Below are positions 40,367 through 54,586 of a stretch of 64,000 bases of DNA, piece by piece. Both the position numbers and the translations under genes were made by a program. Every line of letters begins with the position of its first letter. The first letter of the stretch is position 1. This DNA comes from Glycomyces lechevalierae (GTDB lineage: Bacteria > Actinomycetota > Actinomycetes > Mycobacteriales > Micromonosporaceae), in assembly GCF_027622945.1 (NCBI RefSeq), contig NZ_JAPZVQ010000023.1:1-64000 (forward strand). Direction: 5' to 3'. The notes beneath the pieces are model-generated. The model did no database searches and was not told the DNA's origin. It was given only the letters and a program-made list of their open reading frames with translations.

Positions 40367-41314
40367 GTGACTTCCGTACAGCCTGAAGGACGCCGGATGC
40401 TGCGCCTCGAAGTGCGCAACGCCCAGACCCCGATCGAGAAGAAACCCTCCTGGATCAAGGTCAAGGCCAAGACCGGCCCGGAATACACCGAACTGCGGGG
40501 CCTCGTCAAGAGCGAAGGCCTCCACACGGTCTGCCAAGAAGCCGGTTGTCCCAACATCTACGAATGCTGGGAGGACCGGGAGGCGACGTTCCTCATCGGC
40601 GGCTCCCAGTGCACCCGCCGCTGCGACTTCTGCCAGATCGACACGGGCAAGCCCGAGGCGCTCGACCGCGACGAGCCGCGGCGCGTCGCCGAGTCCGTGC
40701 AGACGATGGGCCTGAAGTACGCCACGATCACGGGCGTCGCCCGCGACGACCTCGAGGACGGCGGCGCGTGGCTCTATGCCGAGACCGTCCGCCAGATCCA
40801 CGCGGCCGTCCCCGGCTGCGGCGTCGAACTGCTCATCCCCGACTTCAACGCGGTTCCCGAGCAGCTCGCCGAGGTCTTCTCCTCGCGCCCCGAGGTGCTC
40901 GCGCACAACGTCGAGACCGTGCCGCGCATCTTCAAGCGCATCCGGCCCGCGTTCCGCTACGAGCGGTCCCTCGAGGTCATCACGAAGGCCCGCGAGGACG
41001 GCCTGGTCACCAAGTCGAACCTCATCCTCGGCATGGGCGAGACGCGCGACGAGGTCTCGCAGGCGCTCAAGGACCTGCACGCCGCGGGCTGCGAGCTCAT
41101 CACGATCACGCAGTACCTGCGCCCGACCAAGCGGCACCACCCGGTGGACCGCTGGGTCAAGCCCGAGGAGTTCGTGGAGCTCACCGCCGAGGCCGAGGAG
41201 ATCGGTTTCGCGGGCGTCATGAGCGGCCCGCTCGTGCGCTCCTCGTACCGCGCCGGGCGTCTGTACCGACAGGCGATCGACGCCCGCTCGGCGACGCTTG
41301 CGAGCCGTAAATGA
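40367..41314 (+). CDS. lipA: Lipoyl synthase
   Basis: 315 residues. Radical-SAM cluster CTRRCDFC (C82, C86, C89) and auxiliary cluster C56-x4-C61-x5-C67 in [13 protein letters not shown], with the family [10 protein letters not shown] near the C-terminus. Inserts sulfur into octanoyl groups on E2/GcvH proteins and so supports the pyruvate dehydrogenase encoded at 25 kb. The GTG lacks an SD and appears leaderless. DUF4191 follows, a very common actinobacterial lipA neighbour. Confidence 0.97.
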
Positions 41315-43996: not shown

Positions 43997-44002
43997 AGCC
44001 TA
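43997..44002 (-). promoter_or_regulatory. Leaderless -10 element of dinB (TAGGCT)
   Basis: TAGGCT, 6 nt, GTG 43990, the same geometry as lipA. Confidence 0.5.
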
Positions 44003-44051
44003 GCCACCCCCACCGACAACCGGCGCGCTCAAGCCGCCCGCCACGCCCGGC

Positions 44052-45629: not shown

Positions 45630-46742
45630 ATGTCCCAGACTCCGAACGATGGCGTGCCGCCTGAAGGAGGGGACCCGCGGGAGTCCCCGCAGGCGGGCGG
45701 CTGGCAGCCGCCCCAAGAGCCCGATCCGCAGTACCCGGTCGGCGGCTCCGGCCCGCAATCCTCGACGCCCGGTCCGCAGCAGCCCGGCTGGCCTCCGCCA
45801 CCCGAAGGCAGCGGTCCGCAGCAGCCCGGCTGGCCTCCGCCACCGGGAGGCAGCGGCCCGCAGTATCCTGGGGGCTGGCAACCCCAAGGCGCGCAGCAGT
45901 ATCCGGGCGGGCAGCCACCGCATTATCCGCCGCCGGGCGGCCCGGGCGCGTACGGGCAGCCGCCGTACGGGCCGCCGCCTCCCCAGGGCGGCAAGCGGAA
46001 CGGTCTCATCATCGGTGTCGTGGTCGCCGTCGGCGTCCTCATCGCGGGCGTCCTCGTCGTGCTCGGCGTGAACATGATGGGCGGCGGGGACGACGACAAG
46101 GAGGTCGCGTCCAATCCGAGCGCTTCGGGCGCTCCCTCCGAGCAGCAGCCGACCGATGACGAGCCCGGCCGCGCGGACGTGCCGGTCAGCGCGTGCCTGC
46201 CGTACGAGCCGGTGGTCGGCTCGTCCGGGTTCGACTTCTCGACCCCGTGCGACAGCGCGGACGCGTTCTGGAAGGTCACGAACTCGAGCGACACGACCGG
46301 GGCCGCCGTGACCCCCGACGGACTCATCGCGGACACGCAGGTCGCCGCCGACCTGTGCGGCGAGGAGTACACCCGGCTCGAGTTCGGCGAGCTGTGGAAG
46401 GACTGGTACTTCACGTACGACACGACCACGTACACCGTCGAGCAGCTGGTCTGCGTCGAGGCGCTCGGCAATCCCGACGCGTCCGGGCGCGTGCCGATCA
46501 TGCCGGACGTCGGCTCGTGCTTCGACGACAGCGACCGGTGGTGGACGGTCCCCTGCGACCGGCCCGAGGCCCTGTACGTCGTGGTCGACACGGTCGCGAT
46601 CGATCCGCCGCGGACCATGTCGCTCGAGGAGGCCGGCGCGGAGGCCGCGCCGTGCTCCGGCGGCGCCAACTACTGGCAGGTCGTCGACGCCGACGGGCGC
46701 ACCACGGATGTCCTGTGCGGCGATCCGCTATTAATCGCGTGA
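45630..46742 (+). CDS. Pro-rich single-pass membrane protein with extracellular Cys domain
   Basis: 370 residues. A Pro/Gly/Gln-rich cytoplasmic N-terminus (about 1-120) contains near-repeats GPQQPGWPPPPxGSGPQ. One membrane segment follows (about 123-148, LIIGVVVAVGVLIAGVLVVL), then an extracellular domain with about seven Cys (VSACLPYEP, STPCDSAD, ADLCGEEYT, QLVCVEALG, GSCFDDS, VPCDRPE) likely in disulfides. This layout is widespread in actinobacteria, sometimes near kinase or secretion genes; function unknown. Leaderless ATG. Confidence 0.8.
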   Translation: MSQTPNDGVPPEGGDPRESPQAGGWQPPQEPDPQYPVGGSGPQSSTPGPQQPGWPPPPEGSGPQQPGWPPPPGGSGPQYPGGWQPQGAQQYPGGQPPHYPPPGGPGAYGQPPYGPPPPQGGKRNGLIIGVVVAVGVLIAGVLVVLGVNMMGGGDDDKEVASNPSASGAPSEQQPTDDEPGRADVPVSACLPYEPVVGSSGFDFSTPCDSADAFWKVTNSSDTTGAAVTPDGLIADTQVAADLCGEEYTRLEFGELWKDWYFTYDTTTYTVEQLVCVEALGNPDASGRVPIMPDVGSCFDDSDRWWTVPCDRPEALYVVVDTVAIDPPRTMSLEEAGAEAAPCSGGANYWQVVDADGRTTDVLCGDPLLIA

Positions 46743-48778: not shown

Positions 48779-49549
48779 TCAGCGCATGGGCTTGCGGGCG
48801 AACAGGTGGATGTGGGTCGCCATGTCCCGGAAAGGGATCCGCGAGGCGGTGGCGAGCTCGAACTCGCGCAGGGCCTCGCCGGTGCCCGTCTCGGCCTTCG
48901 CTGCCGTGGCGGAGATGAGGTCGCCGACGACGCCGACGCCGTGGACCTGCTCGGTGACGAGCCCGGAGCCGCCGACGAGCGCGGTGAGGGTCGCGGTCTC
49001 GAAGCGGCGCTTGATCGTGTCGCGGCCCTCGATGATGCCGTCGACGTTGGCGAGCAGGTCGAGCGCGGTCTGGAAGTTGCCGGCGAGGGCCTTCCCGAGG
49101 ACGGCGGCGATGCGGTTGGCGACGAGGATGCTCACGGCGCCGCCGGGCGCGCAGACGCGGCCGAGGGCGTCGAGGGCGGCGTCCGGGTAGTCGACCATCT
49201 CGAGGACCGAGTGGCAGAGGACGAGGTCGGCGCTGCCGGGCTCGGCCACGTCGGGGAGCTCGTCGGCGTCGGCCTGGACGGCGCGGACGCGGTCGGTGAC
49301 GCCGGCGTCGGCGGCGCGCTGGCGAAGGGAGGCGAGCGCGTTGGCGCTGGGTTCGACGACGGTGACGTCGTGGCCGAGTTCGGCGAGGGGGACGGCGAAG
49401 CCGCCGGAGCCGCCGCCGACGTCGAGGATGCGGAGGGTCGCTCCGGTGCCTGCGGCGAATCGCTCGATCTCGGCCGACAGGACCGACCACACGACGGCCA
49501 TGCGGGGGTGGTGCCCGGTGTGCGTGATCTCTTTGGGAATGTCGACCAT
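48779..49549 (-). CDS. SAM-dependent methyltransferase
   Basis: 256 residues, class I fold. SAM motif I ILDVGGGSGGFAVPLAELG (near 42-60), acidic end of strand 2 VVEPS, motif II region QADADELPD and LVLCHSVLEMVDYPDAALD. Resembles CmoA/UbiE-like small-molecule methyltransferases; substrate unknown. The ATG at 49549 is leaderless (TAGGCT, 7 nt). Confidence 0.9.
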   Translation of the reverse strand: MVDIPKEITHTGHHPRMAVVWSVLSAEIERFAAGTGATLRILDVGGGSGGFAVPLAELGHDVTVVEPSANALASLRQRAADAGVTDRVRAVQADADELPDVAEPGSADLVLCHSVLEMVDYPDAALDALGRVCAPGGAVSILVANRIAAVLGKALAGNFQTALDLLANVDGIIEGRDTIKRRFETATLTALVGGSGLVTEQVHGVGVVGDLISATAAKAETGTGEALREFELATASRIPFRDMATHIHLFARKPMR

Positions 49550-49562: not shown

Positions 49563-49615
49563 GCGCCGCCGCGCCGCACGGGGTAGGAGGGCGGGGAGAG
49601 AGGGCAGTGGGAAAC

Positions 49616-49790
49616 GTGAACGGAGGGTCCCGGCAAATCGGACATCGATGGGTCCCGCTGCGGCGTCGCTTGCGAGCCGCACAGGAGCACCGCACCAGTG
49701 GCACGCGGGTGCGACACGATCCGTTGGCGCTGAATGTGAACGGAGGGTCCACGCAAAACGGACATCGATGGGCCCCCGGTTCTAACCCTG
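49616..49790 (+). repeat. Two-box dispersed repeat, copy A
   Basis: About 175 bp. The box GTGAACGGAGGGTCC.. GGACATCGATGGG occurs at 49616 and again at 49736, exactly 120 bp apart. The spacer carries TTGCGAGCCG, GAGCAC and GTTGGCGCTGAA. The element ends in GGCCCCCGGT..AACCCTG. A second full copy lies in inverted orientation at 53254-53429. No conserved reading frame. Confidence 0.85.
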
Positions 49791-49810
49791 CCACGCTGGA
49801 CCGACAGAAC

Positions 49811-49847
49811 ACGGCTGCCCGGTCCCTTGGGGGGACCGGGCAGCCGT
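49811..49847 (-). terminator. Strong terminator, 16-bp stem
   Basis: ACGGCTGCCCGGTCCC, 5-nt loop, GGGACCGGGCAGCCGT. Ends the epimerase/WecG transcript. Confidence 0.85.
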
Positions 49848-49860
49848 GAACATGTTTCGG

Positions 49861-50625
49861 CTAGTCGCGCAGGAACGGGGGCCGTTTGCGGATCTCCCGC
49901 AGGTAGGCCGGGTTGTTCTGGAAGTAGCGGCGCCAGAGGCGCTTGGGCTCCTTCGTGAGCCGGTAGAACCATTCGAGGCCGTTGCGCTGCATCCACGGCG
50001 GGGCCTGCGGGACGAGCCCGGCGTGGAAGTCGAACGCGGCGCCGACGCCGAACATCGCGGGGGCGTTGAGGCGGTCGCGGTGGGCGGCCATCCAGCGCTC
50101 CTGCTTCGGCGTCGAGAGCCCCACCCACACCAGTTGCGCGCCGGAGTCGTTGATGCGCTTGACGATCGCGTCGTCCTCCTCCTCCGTCAGGGGACGGAAG
50201 GGCGGCGAGTACATGCCGGCGAACTTGACGCCGGGGATGCGCTCGGCGAGCTTCTCGGCGAGGAGTTCGGGCACGCCGTCCTTGCCGCCGTAGAGGAACG
50301 AGGTCCAGCCGCGTTCGGCGGCGCGGGCGAGCACGTTGAGCATCAGGTCGGGCCCGTAGACCCGGTCCATCCAGTCGGCGCCGGCCTTGTGCCCGGCCCA
50401 CACCATCGGCATGCCGTCGGGCGTGGTGAGCCCGGAGGCGTTGTGGATGGCGAGCAGTTCGGGGTCGCGCTGGGACTCCATGACGCCGTGCACGCCGGTG
50501 ACGCACACGTAGTGGCGTTCACCGGTCTCGACCCAGCGGGTGACCTCGGCGAGCGCCATGTCCTGGTTGACGGTGGAGACGCCGACGCCGAGGACGTCGA
50601 CGCGGCGGAGCTTCGGGTCGGACAT
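49861..50625 (-). CDS. WecG/TagA/CpsF-family glycosyltransferase
   Basis: 254 residues with the family core TTPDGMPMVWAGHKAG and FLYGGKDGVPELLAEKL, then WVGLSTPKQERWMAAHRDRL and GVGAAFDFHAG. WecG/TagA enzymes move ManNAc-type sugars onto undecaprenyl-PP-GlcNAc at the membrane during surface polymer assembly. Its ATG overlaps the epimerase stop by one base (TGATG), so the two are coupled and may supply and transfer the same sugar type. Confidence 0.92.
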   Translation of the reverse strand: MSDPKLRRVDVLGVGVSTVNQDMALAEVTRWVETGERHYVCVTGVHGVMESQRDPELLAIHNASGLTTPDGMPMVWAGHKAGADWMDRVYGPDLMLNVLARAAERGWTSFLYGGKDGVPELLAEKLAERIPGVKFAGMYSPPFRPLTEEEDDAIVKRINDSGAQLVWVGLSTPKQERWMAAHRDRLNAPAMFGVGAAFDFHAGLVPQAPPWMQRNGLEWFYRLTKEPKRLWRRYFQNNPAYLREIRKRPPFLRD

Positions 50626-51608
50626 CAGAGGCTGTACTTGGCCTTGACCTCGTTGTAGACCCACTCGTAGGTCTTGGTCATGCCCTCGCGGAGGCTGATC
50701 GAGGGCTCCCAGCCGTAGTACTTCTGGATGAGCGTGTTGTCCGAGTTGCGGCCGCGCACGCCCAGGGGGCCGTCGATGTGCTTGAGCTCGATGTCGATCC
50801 CGGCGATGTCGGCGACCAGGTAGTACAGGTTGTTGATCGTGGTCAGCTCGGAGGAGCCGAGGTTGAGCGGCTCGGTGACGTCGCCGCGCGTGAACATCTT
50901 GGTGCCGTGGACGCAGTCGTCGATGTAGGTGAAGGAGCGGGTCTGCTCGCCGTCGCCCCAGATCTCGACCGTCTTCTCGCCCTTGAGGGCGGCGAGGGCG
51001 ATCTTGCGGCAGGTCGCGGCGGGGGCCTTCTCGCGGCCGCCGTCCCAGGTGCCCTCGGGCCCGTAGATGTTGTGGTAGCGGGCGATGCGGGTCTCGAGGC
51101 CGAAGTCCTCGCGGAAGTGGCGGCACATGCGCTCGGAGAACAGCTTCTCCCAGCCGTAGCCGTCCTCGGCGTCGGCGGGGTAGGCGTCCTCTTCCTTCAG
51201 GGGCGCGATGTTCGCCTCGGTCTGCTTGTAGCCGGCGTAGACGCACGCGGAGGAGGAGTAGAAGAAGCGGCCGACCTCGGCGTCCTTGGCGGCCATGAGC
51301 ATGTGGGTGGAGGGGAGGACCGAGAGCATGCACAGGGCCTTGTTGTTCTCGATGAAGCCCATGCCGCCCATGTTGCAGGCGAGGTTGTAGACCTCGGCGG
51401 CGCCGTCGCCGACGGCTTCGCGGCAGGCCTCGAGGTCGGCGAGGTCGCGCTGCAGGTTCTCGGTGTCGCCGTGGACCTGGTACCACTCGTCGAGGGGCTT
51501 GACGTCGACGGCGCGAACGCTCTTGCCCTCGGCGAGGAGGCTCGCCACCAGGTGCCCGCCGATGAAGCCACCGGCTCCCGCCACTACCGCGTCCACGCTT
51601 GCCGCCAT
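50625..51608 (-). CDS. GDP-mannose 3,5-epimerase-like SDR enzyme
   Basis: 327 residues. NAD site GAGGFIGGHLV, catalytic SSSACVY and YGWEK (Tyr-x3-Lys). The segment MGGMGFIENNKALCM and GTWDGGREKAPAATCRK closely follow the plant GDP-D-mannose 3',5'-epimerase signatures (MGGMGFI, EGTWKGGREKAPAAF). The expected product would be GDP-L-galactose or GDP-L-gulose. ATG 51608 follows GAGGAG at 5 nt; an upstream GTG at 51614 is less likely. Partner gene wecG-like follows. Confidence 0.88.
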   Translation of the reverse strand: MAASVDAVVAGAGGFIGGHLVASLLAEGKSVRAVDVKPLDEWYQVHGDTENLQRDLADLEACREAVGDGAAEVYNLACNMGGMGFIENNKALCMLSVLPSTHMLMAAKDAEVGRFFYSSSACVYAGYKQTEANIAPLKEEDAYPADAEDGYGWEKLFSERMCRHFREDFGLETRIARYHNIYGPEGTWDGGREKAPAATCRKIALAALKGEKTVEIWGDGEQTRSFTYIDDCVHGTKMFTRGDVTEPLNLGSSELTTINNLYYLVADIAGIDIELKHIDGPLGVRGRNSDNTLIQKYYGWEPSISLREGMTKTYEWVYNEVKAKYSL

Positions 51609-51664
51609 CGTCACTCCTCAAGGTTTCGGATACGGGGAAAGAAGCCTCAGCCTACCCGTCGCGT

Positions 51665-52642
51665 TTACACGCCCACCAGCCGGGAAATGGGGTGTAAGTC
51701 ACCTTTGGGGGCGGTGTCAGAGGCGGGGTCGGGGGCGCTCGCGGGCTCGTTCGGGGTCTCGTTCGCGCCGCGCCGCAGCAGCTGCGCGGGGCTGATCACG
51801 AACAGGTCCGGGTCGGGGTCGGCGGCGATCGCGGCCTCGACGCGCGGGGCGACGCAGTAGAGGCGGGTCTTGGGGTCGCCGAGGAGCCGCCGGACGTAGC
51901 GGAGGCGCTTGAGCTGGCGTTCGACCATCTGGAACTTCCAGCGGATCGTGCCGAGCGCGATCGGCTCGCCGGTCTCGCTCCACGCGGCGAGCTCGATGGT
52001 GCGGAGCTGCCGGAAGCGCGGGTCGGGGACGGTGAGCCGCGTGGTCTGCGCCGCGGCCGGGTCGTTGAGCGCCCATTCGCGGGCGAGCCGGTGGAACTCG
52101 GGGCGGCACACGTACCGGTCCCAGCGGGCGTGGGTCATCCGCCACAGTTTGTCGGTGATGTAGCCGCGGCGCCAGCGCGCGAGGTGCACGGCGAGCACCG
52201 CGTAGTGGAAGCGCGCGAGGCGGTGCTCCATGGTCCAGAACGGCGCGTCGGGCTCGAGCGGGTTCGCTTCGGCGCGGATCAGGCCGGCCTGCTCGAGGTG
52301 CGGGAGGAGGACGTCGAGGTCGGCTTCGGAGAGGCCGGTGACGGCGCGCAGGTCGTACGGGGTGCGGGGCCGGGTGGTGATGGCGGCGAGGACGTCGTCG
52401 GTGGGCTTGTCCGGGGCTTCGCCGAGGACGTCGGCGACGGCGTTCGCCGCGACCTCCAGGAACGGGCCCTCGGGGCGCAGGAACTTGGCCTTGACCCAGG
52501 TGTCGGCGTCTTGGCGGGTCTGTGGCAGGTCGCCGGCCTGCGCGAGGAGCGCGGGGTCGGAGCCGAGGGTGGCGTGGACGCTGACGGCCGTCTCGGGGTC
52601 GGCCACGCCCACGGAGAGGATGGACTCGCGCAGTTCGTTCAT
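51665..52642 (-). CDS. DUF234-like winged-helix protein lacking the ATPase domain
   Basis: 325 residues. A winged helix near 85-125 (LRAVTGLSEADLDVLLPHLEQAGL) is followed by the segment DAPFWTMEHRLARFHYAVL and a region resembling the C-terminal nuclease-like domain of archaeal-type ATPases (DUF234). In that family one expects EIDVVA and an ECKW-like motif; here the equivalents read TIELAAW and TIRWKF, so the catalytic acids seem lost. The N-terminal P-loop ATPase is absent, since the first 80 residues show no Walker motif. SD weak. Function unknown. Confidence 0.6.
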   Translation of the reverse strand: MNELRESILSVGVADPETAVSVHATLGSDPALLAQAGDLPQTRQDADTWVKAKFLRPEGPFLEVAANAVADVLGEAPDKPTDDVLAAITTRPRTPYDLRAVTGLSEADLDVLLPHLEQAGLIRAEANPLEPDAPFWTMEHRLARFHYAVLAVHLARWRRGYITDKLWRMTHARWDRYVCRPEFHRLAREWALNDPAAAQTTRLTVPDPRFRQLRTIELAAWSETGEPIALGTIRWKFQMVERQLKRLRYVRRLLGDPKTRLYCVAPRVEAAIAADPDPDLFVISPAQLLRRGANETPNEPASAPDPASDTAPKGDLHPISRLVGV

Positions 52643-52675
52643 AGCGATGCCGATGCTACACAGGCGCTGCGCGGG

Positions 52676-53179
52676 TCACAGTTCACGGAACATGAGGTGC
52701 ATGCCGACCAGGCCCTGGGTCGGATGGCGGAAGGTCTCGGGGAGGACCGCGAGGGTGCGGAAGCCGAGGGCGTGCCAGAGGTCGACGGCGCGGGTGTTGG
52801 TGGCGACGACCGCGTTGAACTGCATGGCGGTGAAGCCGTCCGCTTTGGCGCGGGCGAGTGCCGCCGCGCCGAGCGCGCGGCCGACGCCCTTGCCGCGCAC
52901 GGCGGGGTCGACCATGAAGCCCGCGTTGGCGATGTGCGACCCCCGGCCGGGCTGGTTCGGGTGGATCTCGGCGATCCCGACGACGCGGCCGTCGACCGAT
53001 CCGTCCTCGACCACGGCGACGAGCGCGCTGGCGGGCGCCTCCTTCTCGATCCAGAAGGCGCGCAGCCGTGCTTCGGGAGTGTCGGCCTCCCACAAGAAGT
53101 GCTCGCCGGAGGCGACGATGGGAGCGGCGAACGCCCACACGGCAGGCCAGTCCTCGGGGCGCGCATCACGGATCTCCAT
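52676..53179 (-). CDS. GNAT N-acetyltransferase
   Basis: 167 residues starting MEIRDARPEDWPAVW. Acetyl-CoA site VDPAVRGKGVGRALGAAAL (R-x-x-G-x-G/A), then ATNTRAVDLWHALGF. Typical RimI/YhhY-like size; substrate unknown. ATG 53179 lies 8 nt after TACGCT with no SD, perhaps leaderless. Confidence 0.9.
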   Translation of the reverse strand: MEIRDARPEDWPAVWAFAAPIVASGEHFLWEADTPEARLRAFWIEKEAPASALVAVVEDGSVDGRVVGIAEIHPNQPGRGSHIANAGFMVDPAVRGKGVGRALGAAALARAKADGFTAMQFNAVVATNTRAVDLWHALGFRTLAVLPETFRHPTQGLVGMHLMFREL

Positions 53180-53253
53180 GGCATGGAAGCGTAGTCGAGG
53201 CCCCCTCACGACGCCAGCGCGCCGACGGGCGGCCTGATGTCGTACCCGCCTGT

Positions 53254-53429
53254 CAGGGTTGCGACCGGGGGCCCATCGATGTCCGATTCGCGAAGACCCT
53301 CCGTTCACGTTCGGCGCCAACGCGAATCGTCGGACCCTTATGCCAGGGTGCTGTGCTCATTGCCGGCTCGCAAGCTTCGCCGGGTACCGGGGCCCTTCGG
53401 ATGCCCGATCTGCCGGACTCTCCGTTCAC
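53254..53429 (-). repeat. Two-box dispersed repeat, copy B (inverted)
   Basis: The minus strand carries GTGAACGGAGAGTCC at 53429 and GTGAACGGAGGGTC at 53308 (121 bp apart), with the same spacer words TTGCGAGCCG, GAGCAC, GTTGGCGC and the same end GGCCCCCGGT..AACCCTG as copy A. Its left edge sits 2 bp past the stop of the monooxygenase gene. Confidence 0.85.
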
Positions 53430-53431
53430 GT

Positions 53432-54586
53432 TCAGCGCGGCGGCTGCCAGTCCGACAGCGAGGCCGCCTGGTTCTGCACCCACGAGTCCGGCACCGCCCG
53501 CAGCAGGCTCTTGGTCATCCCCCGGCCGCCGGAGGCGATCGTGTGGACCCGTCGCGAGAGGCGGGCGACCCGCTTGATGCGGGCGAGGCGGGCCCGGTCG
53601 TAGGAGGCGAGCGCCGCCGGGACCGATTCGGGGGTGCGCCGCAGCGCCCACCCGAGGGTCACCGCGTCCTCCAGAGCGAGGCTCGCGCCCTGCGCGAGGA
53701 TCGGCGCGACGCCGTGCGCGGCGTCGCCGAGCAGCACCAGGCCGCCCTGGCCGACCGGCTGGTGCAGGACCGGCGGGATCGGCCACACGTACCGGACCGA
53801 CTGCTGCGTCAGCTCCGAGGGCCGGGTCGCGGCGATGAACTTGCCGACCGGGTCGGGCCAGTCGGCGAACCACCGGTTGATGAGCTCGTACTGGATCTGC
53901 GGCGACTCCGGCCGCATCCCGCCCGGCACCGTCGCCCACCAGCACGCCCCGGCGTGCCCGAGGTCGCCGTAGCCGAAGCGGCGGCGGTCGGGCCCGTAGA
54001 TCTCCACGGCGTCCGTGGTCCGCTCGGGCGCCCGATGCGCGGGCACGAGACCCCGGAAGCACACCACCCCGGCGTCCACTGTGGGCGAACCGGGGGCGAT
54101 GAGCGGCCGCGTCGGCGAGTCGATGCCGTCCGCCGCGACCACGAGTTCGGCGTCCCAGCGGCGCGACGCGTCGCCCGCCGCCAGGTCCACCATGTCGATC
54201 CGGTCGACCTGCGTCGCCGGGTGCACCTGGACGTTGTCCCCCAGCCGCGACACCAGCGCCTCGTACAGCATCGCGGTGTGCACCATCACTGAAGGCGTGC
54301 CGTCGTCGGCCCCGAGCATCGCCGCCGCGAACGAGCTCGACAGGCGGTCCTCGTTGCGGATCTCGAAGCGGTCAACCGGGGTCCCGGACGCGTCGAGCTG
54401 CGCGTCGACCCCGAGCGCGCGCAGCGCGCGCACGCCCGAGGCCCACAGGACCATGCCCAGGTCCTCGCCTTTGAGGCGCTCGCGCCGCTCGAGCAGCGCG
54501 ACCCGCCAGCCCAGCTTGGACAGGACGATCGCGCTGGCGAGCCCGGCGACGCCGGCGCCGACGACTACGGCTCTTCGGTTCTGCAT
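53432..54586 (-). CDS. FAD-dependent monooxygenase (UbiH/salicylate hydroxylase-like)
   Basis: 384 residues from ATG 54586 (MQNRRAVVVGAGVAGLASA); GTGs at 54595/54592 are alternatives. FAD motif GAGVAGL, DG motif VVAADGIDSPTRPLIA, GD motif VLLGDAAHGVAPILAQGASL. Hydroxylates an unknown aromatic or polyketide-like substrate. Its 3' end abuts the dispersed repeat B (CGC TGA ACGTGAACGG), so the C-terminus may have been trimmed by that insertion. lgt lies directly upstream in the same direction, 21 bp away. Confidence 0.9.
   Translation of the reverse strand: MQNRRAVVVGAGVAGLASAIVLSKLGWRVALLERRERLKGEDLGMVLWASGVRALRALGVDAQLDASGTPVDRFEIRNEDRLSSSFAAAMLGADDGTPSVMVHTAMLYEALVSRLGDNVQVHPATQVDRIDMVDLAAGDASRRWDAELVVAADGIDSPTRPLIAPGSPTVDAGVVCFRGLVPAHRAPERTTDAVEIYGPDRRRFGYGDLGHAGACWWATVPGGMRPESPQIQYELINRWFADWPDPVGKFIAATRPSELTQQSVRYVWPIPPVLHQPVGQGGLVLLGDAAHGVAPILAQGASLALEDAVTLGWALRRTPESVPAALASYDRARLARIKRVARLSRRVHTIASGGRGMTKSLLRAVPDSWVQNQAASLSDWQPPR

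Follow-up and report, generated by a model that had tools for sequence, protein, structure and literature searches.

What are the two similar non-coding repeats that face each other across a small epimerase/glycosyltransferase gene block in Glycomyces lechevalierae? The repeats, copies A and B, lie in the first 64,000 nucleotides of contig NZ_JAPZVQ010000023.1 (assembly GCF_027622945.1), a stretch that we call the window and that forms part of contig C16 in our numbering of the 5.6-Mb genome. A preliminary description, made from the letters of the window, had offered a miniature inverted-repeat transposable element (MITE), a structured RNA, or a recombination site. Here, we report that the repeats are members of an extensive, long-lived family of short non-coding units, most Glycomyces genomes having a few tens of copies, whole or partial, and that each unit opens with a core built like the DNA-damage promoter recognized by PafBC. 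We regard the chances as about evenly balanced that the units are stand-alone damage-type promoter units, which would start short non-coding or antisense RNAs.

The repeats form a dispersed, often tandem family found so far only in Glycomyces

The inverted pair is a real repeat and lies where it had been placed. The full extents are 49613–49806 for copy A and 53238–53433 for copy B, and self-alignment yields inverted arms of 108 nt at 78% and 44 nt at 89% identity. As described, there are two boxes per copy, starting at 49616 and 49736 in A (plus strand, 120 bp apart) and at 53295 and 53416 in B (minus strand, 121 bp apart). Both copies consist of two ~76-bp units in tandem, and we refer to the four units as A1, A2, B1, and B2. 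The first box of copy B has indeed diverged, and the box CGGACATCGATGGG is intact in unit B1. Of the proposed spacer common to both copies, TTGCGAGCCG followed by GAGCAC is part of a small nested palindrome common to A1 and B2, and GTTGGCGC falls within the linker between units. Because the nested palindrome and the linker letters are common to both copies, A may have been copied from B.

A blastn search with copy A found 12 places in the genome (E ≤ 1e-3), A itself and B included. The box GTGAACGGAGRGTC, allowing at most one mismatch, gave 22 matches in this genome versus one for the reversed control; in six of the 22 (L014, L015, L017, L018, L028, and L029), inspection found the remainder of the unit absent, and these look like chance matches. 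We then used R1, a sequence-only profile made from 15 units with a match threshold of E ≤ 0.01, which matched this genome 58 times, with 17 matches covering nearly the whole unit and the others partial. Along with the gene calls described below, these searches bear out the earlier view that the element is non-coding, lies between genes, and has further copies elsewhere. In this genome (G000), the end of contig C16 (78000–83437) and C22:2500–7500 share genes, and two R1 pairs are probably counted twice there.

R1 matched 20 of the 22 Glycomyces genomes: 15 of them, this one included, have 28–69 matches, G015 has 12, and four have 1–3, leaving two with none. Matches were found in 3 of 61 genomes sampled from the family and in 5 of 200 from the order, all of them Glycomyces, under stricter filters and with few scored candidates per genome; the cross-genome counts rest on at most 150, 79, or 24 scored candidates per genome, depending on the search. 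In the samples searched, the family is restricted to Glycomyces. The exact box pattern had no match in viral contigs, and unit B1 had none in plasmids or phages. A recA tree of 21 genomes, which excludes G012 (partial recA match) and has no known root, groups the five element-poor genomes in a single clade (support 0.996), and the family therefore underwent a single expansion or a single loss.

The unit consists of a fixed core, a G-run, and a conserved tail

To describe the unit, we reversed the strand of the preliminary description and aligned 168 distinct units, 10 of 178 having been dropped for lack of a clear TGTC. The unit starts with TGTC (0.88, 1.00, 0.99, and 1.00 per base), followed by R (0.98), any base, and ACCC (0.87–0.93). 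After ACCC come six variable bases, then Y-A-NNN-T (A 0.96, T 0.98) and later four Gs (0.93–0.99). The core geometry is TGTCR-N11-YA-NNN-T, or more fully TGTCR-N-ACCC-N6-YANNNT, and the A at column 17 and the T at column 21 occur together in 159 of the 168 units; the same letters at offsets of −5 to +7 do so in only 0–5. Downstream of the G-run, ~45 conserved non-coding bases hold the boxes: TCCGATTTG and GACCCTCCGTTCACGTT in this tail are the boxes of the preliminary description read backwards. A start-codon reading (ATG or GTG before a conserved TCC, 96 of 111 units) was rejected, as indels break the frame and, by inspection, changes are not confined to third positions.

The same core (TGTCRNACCC-N6-YANNNTTG..GGGG) is also found with several other recurring tails, for example on contigs C29, C22, C19, C12, C6, and others of G000 (L199–L201, L380–L396). 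A strict core pattern gave 19 matches in G000, 33 in G008, 7 in G016, and 0 in G004, with 0 in the reversed controls. If the units are transcribed, several different tails on one core would suggest more than one class of RNA. The nested palindrome, near GACGGCTCGCAAGCTTCGCC, is a dispersed repeat in its own right, present in the window within units A1 and B2 (Table 1) and at ~41290–41309, as well as at L255, L241, and others. It has 16 distinct matches with at most four mismatches in 103 sequences, versus two (not deduplicated) for the reversed pattern; some copies lie within units, in either orientation, and others stand alone.

The core has the geometry of the PafBC damage promoter

The RecA-independent damage promoter of mycobacteria (RecA-NDp) has the motif tTGTCRgtg-8 nt-TannnT (PMC5656591); for this class in actinobacteria, see Gamulin 2004, as cited in PMC5656591 and PMC6789036. 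PafBC acts through this motif (PMC6789036, PMC8223512) and is switched on by single-stranded DNA (PMC11804915). In the units, TGTCR stands at the fixed spacing from the A and T of a −10-like element in the 159 units noted above. By a hand calculation, an unrelated conserved element of such length would show this geometry on either strand in about 1 of 100 cases.

The genome provides its own yardstick for this promoter class. In all 22 Glycomyces genomes, TTGTCGG-N10-TACCGT lies 84–93 bp before the RecA domain. The broader pattern TTGTCRG-N10-TANNNT has 11 matches in this genome versus 0 for the reversed control. Among these 11, matches precede the genes for recN, DNA polymerase IV, and recA (all above the NCBIfam cut-offs) and polA (E 1.7e-104, under the cut-off since only its first 497 residues were scanned), and one precedes a DExH helicase gene, which, from its position near pafBC, we take to be HelY-like. 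The remaining six comprise a unit of the family (C15:44038, an exact match to the full motif), one intragenic match, one with no called gene after it, and three before unscanned genes. The start codon is 30 nt from the motif start in polA, recN, and the helicase gene, which suggests leaderless transcripts; on this scale, the G-run of the units would fall at +1, the predicted start of transcription.

The genome also encodes a protein with a PafC helix-turn-helix domain (PF19187, E 1.1e-38) beside a second WYL protein. WYL proteins are present in all 22 Glycomyces genomes (3–9 matches each), averaging 7.6 matches where R1 matches number 12 or more (16 genomes) versus 4.5 in the six others, uncorrected for genome size.

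By geometry, the core appears to belong to the PafBC promoter class, and it may work like such a promoter. If so, DNA damage would lead PafBC, activated by single-stranded DNA, and the housekeeping RNA polymerase to recognize the core and start a short RNA beginning with Gs, and this RNA would stay within the intergenic gap or extend, in antisense, over the 3′ end of a gene that faces it. A broader reading, which we hold only tentatively and think possible rather than probable, is that Glycomyces has put the PafBC damage promoter to use in dozens of stand-alone non-coding transcription units across the genome, often tandem and often facing genes, from which damage switches on short RNAs that are conserved in sequence and unstructured or antisense. 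If the units fire, the PafBC damage response would have a non-coding arm in Glycomyces that gene-centered regulon lists miss. Even if they are silent, dozens of short sites limited to one genus, with a motif conserved across species, point to a DNA- or RNA-binding function.

Several observations weigh against a promoter role. Of the 168 units, 112 have C and 42 have T as the first letter of the −10-like element, whereas recA has TA there in all 22 genomes, and the units do not keep the first T of TTGTC. Only 68 of 161 units (57 of 131 arrays) are followed by a co-directional gene, and therefore the units as a rule are not promoters of their neighbors. Copy B, for example, points at the 3′ end of a facing gene (Table 1). 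NCBIfam names neither of the two adjoining WYL proteins. In addition, 23 of the 60 orthologous gaps examined below show no unit and may hide losses, and the contrast between motif and spacer reported there is partly built in, as the profile demands the motif and units without it go unrecognized. Because the units do not as a rule stand before a gene that they could drive, and because their −10-like elements are a mix of CA and TA starts, we do not class them as PafBC promoters.

The main rival to the damage-promoter reading is that the unit is a DNA-binding site other than a promoter, for another WYL regulator or a chromosome-organizing or repair protein, and merely resembles the PafBC core. 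The linear conservation of the motif without structure, the lack of bias toward co-directional genes, the prevalence of CAnnnT, and the number of WYL proteins in element-rich genomes are all consistent with such a site. However, the spacing and letters of the core agree with those of the recA, polA, recN, and DNA polymerase IV promoters of the same genome, and one unit matches the full motif exactly. We consider this rival rather improbable, albeit worth taking seriously.

Units are intergenic, mostly shared between species, and conserved in the motif

The core lies outside called genes in 161 of the 162 scorable units. The calls come from our own codon-usage gene caller, and the placement counts drop six units without flanks and the one unit with its core in a called gene. 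Units fall most often between convergent genes (56 of 161). Among the arrays, 29 of 74 have a facing stop codon at most 20 nt from the tail end, which carries the box, as compared to 13 of 78 for the core end. This placement is what one might expect of a terminator or 3′-untranslated-region element that belongs, in the orientation of the preliminary description, to the gene whose stop codon precedes the unit. However, folding shows no excess in that orientation (mean z −0.60), a separate GC-rich inverted repeat is seen by inspection near the gene end at site A and at C15, and the TGTCR and YANNNT letters would go unexplained, all of which makes a terminator quite unlikely.

We next compared orthologous positions at 12 sites, the best-scoring of 22 prepared, in five near relatives picked from 21 genomes. 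Among the resulting 60 gaps, some of which contain N or low-complexity sequence (the C3 site in G009 and G015) or miss a flank (G016), at least one unit was recognized in 37, in the same orientation in 36. A unit stands at site B in G010, G002, G009, and G015 and at site A in G010 alone; none of the five has one at site C32:216866. In G. algeriensis (L032, L317), the site A gap holds a different tandem array, of ~110-nt repeats with TTGCGAGCGGACCGG, together with a reading frame.

We also compared columns among 54 units at these sites, having dropped those that were under 25 bits or incomplete; the pairs are not independent. In the motif, G-run, and tail columns, identity is 0.82–0.96 whether the pairs are orthologs, paralogs, or unrelated. 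Identity in the spacer columns 10–15 is 0.50 for orthologs, 0.35 for paralogs, and 0.36 for unrelated pairs, and that of the upstream 30-bp flank is 0.43, 0.31, and 0.31, respectively. These identities therefore indicate vertical descent without homogenization within the genome, with the motif kept while the rest drifts.

These data also bear on whether the units are old debris of a mobile repeat, like a MITE or a repetitive extragenic palindrome (REP), now without function. Dispersed copies, tandem pairs, both orientations, the nested palindrome, and the occupancy of some sites, such as site A and C32:216866, in only one or two of six genomes would fit this explanation. However, motif columns are kept while spacers diverge, and the positions of sites are common to species. 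Neither terminal inverted repeats nor target duplications were seen by inspection of the unit ends and six aligned sites, although transposases were not searched for. Functionless debris is thus unlikely, and a recently mobile MITE, as once suggested, finds no support, since the sites are mostly shared between species.

No sign of a conserved RNA fold or of inversion of the gene block

The proposed structured RNA found no support in the folding analysis, which gave a mean z of −0.43 in our orientation and the value given above in the other (40 of 111 units), both near zero. A covariance check found no base-pair covariation; the mutual information among the 111 units reflects linkage between subtypes, not base pairs. 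RNAalifold on 15 units predicted eight pairs, one with a change on both sides, and Rfam had no match in the window besides a tRNA. A core hairpin, CCCCNN..NNGGGG, seemed convincing in selected examples judged by eye, but across 137 cores the pairing of its arms did not exceed that of shuffled partners. Likewise, for a REP-type stem with compensating changes, no register clearly beats shuffled partners in the same cores.

Copies A and B could in principle be a recombination site through which the intervening 3.4-kb block is inverted or moved, as the inverted arms flanking it had suggested. However, all four flanks of A and B are collinear in G010, G002, G009, and G015, and three of the four were found in G016. 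The block genes also have a single orientation in the alignment of L031–L036, barring cross-matches between repeats, and the block is collinear even where the copies are absent. No recombinase was found among the six genes scanned in or beside the block. Recombination across the pair is therefore hardly credible.

Relation to known dispersed elements

Like the PafBC promoter, the unit has TGTCR, a fixed spacing, and the −10-like A and T, in a genome with this motif before recA, polA, recN, and dinB-type genes. Unlike it, the units stand alone in dozens of intergenic places, are followed by ~45 conserved non-coding bases, are often tandem, mostly read CAnnnT, and are not aimed at the next gene. 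Mobile promoters and promoter propagation likewise place promoter-like sequence at many intergenic places; unlike these, most tested unit sites are common to several species, and no preference for a co-directional next gene is seen. The 13E12 repeats of mycobacteria are protein-coding and linked to damage-inducible promoters, whereas no coding part was found in the unit. We considered and set aside an origin of the core in DUF222/13E12 genes, as two contigs show solo cores among unrelated genes; no DUF222-aimed search was made.

The CGTC-tagged REP palindromes (PMC3733652) resemble the units in being intergenic, present in many copies, and often located between convergent genes, and their CGTC tag is often changed to TGTC, similar to the unit start. 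However, they have stems of 8–9 bp with loops of 4–5 bases, and the arms of the unit pair no better than shuffled. The text of that paper names no actinobacteria. A narrow search of open-licence papers found no published description of the Glycomyces unit family.

Arrangement of the units and neighboring genes in the window

The four units and the neighboring genes are listed in Table 1.

Table 1. Positions of repeat units, the reference motif, and adjacent genes in the window
Feature	Position	Strand	Evidence
Unit A1, with nested palindrome at 49662–49681	49613–49716	minus	R1 match of the box part (49613–49656), E 1.6e-11
Unit A2, nearly full length	49732–49806	minus	R1 match, E 1.0e-19
Unit B1, nearly full length	53238–53312	plus	R1 match, E 6.7e-21
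Unit B2, with nested palindrome at 53362–53381	53328–53433	plus	R1 match (53361–53433), E 7.4e-9; core start by inspection
Methyltransferase gene	48779–49549	minus	Pfam Methyltransf_11, gene call
FAD-binding monooxygenase-like gene	53432–54586	minus	Pfam FAD_binding_3, gene call
Exact PafBC-class motif TTGTCGG-N10-TAGGCT (yardstick, not a unit of the family)	43997–44019	minus	Pattern match
DNA polymerase IV gene, with the motif upstream	42746–43930		Gene call, NCBIfam/Pfam

Unit A2 has its promoter-like core at the high end, with TGTC starting at 49806 on the minus strand and a −10-like CAGGGT at 49785–49790, and at its low end lies the second box of copy A in the preliminary description. The core of unit A1, TGTCGCACCC (49707–49716, by inspection), is degenerate, with the final T missing at the −10-like position. 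Unit B1 shows the order TGTCGTACCC-N6-CAGGGT, the G-run, and then its intact box on the opposite strand. The methyltransferase gene lies downstream of the copy A cores and is co-directional with them, so that copy A points at the start of this gene. The end of unit B2 abuts the stop codon of the facing monooxygenase-like gene, and a transcript from copy B would be antisense to the 3′ end of that gene.

Within the block, Pfam agrees with the earlier labels WecG, epimerase/GDP-mannose dehydratase, and GNAT, but the gene called DUF234-like (51665–52642) had no Pfam match at E ≤ 1e-3. The epimerase gene is 98% identical to that of G. niveus and 97% to that of G. algeriensis, the nearest named relatives. 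Elsewhere in the window, two 42-bp direct repeats (45770–45853), 95% alike, fall within a reading frame, in its proline-rich part.

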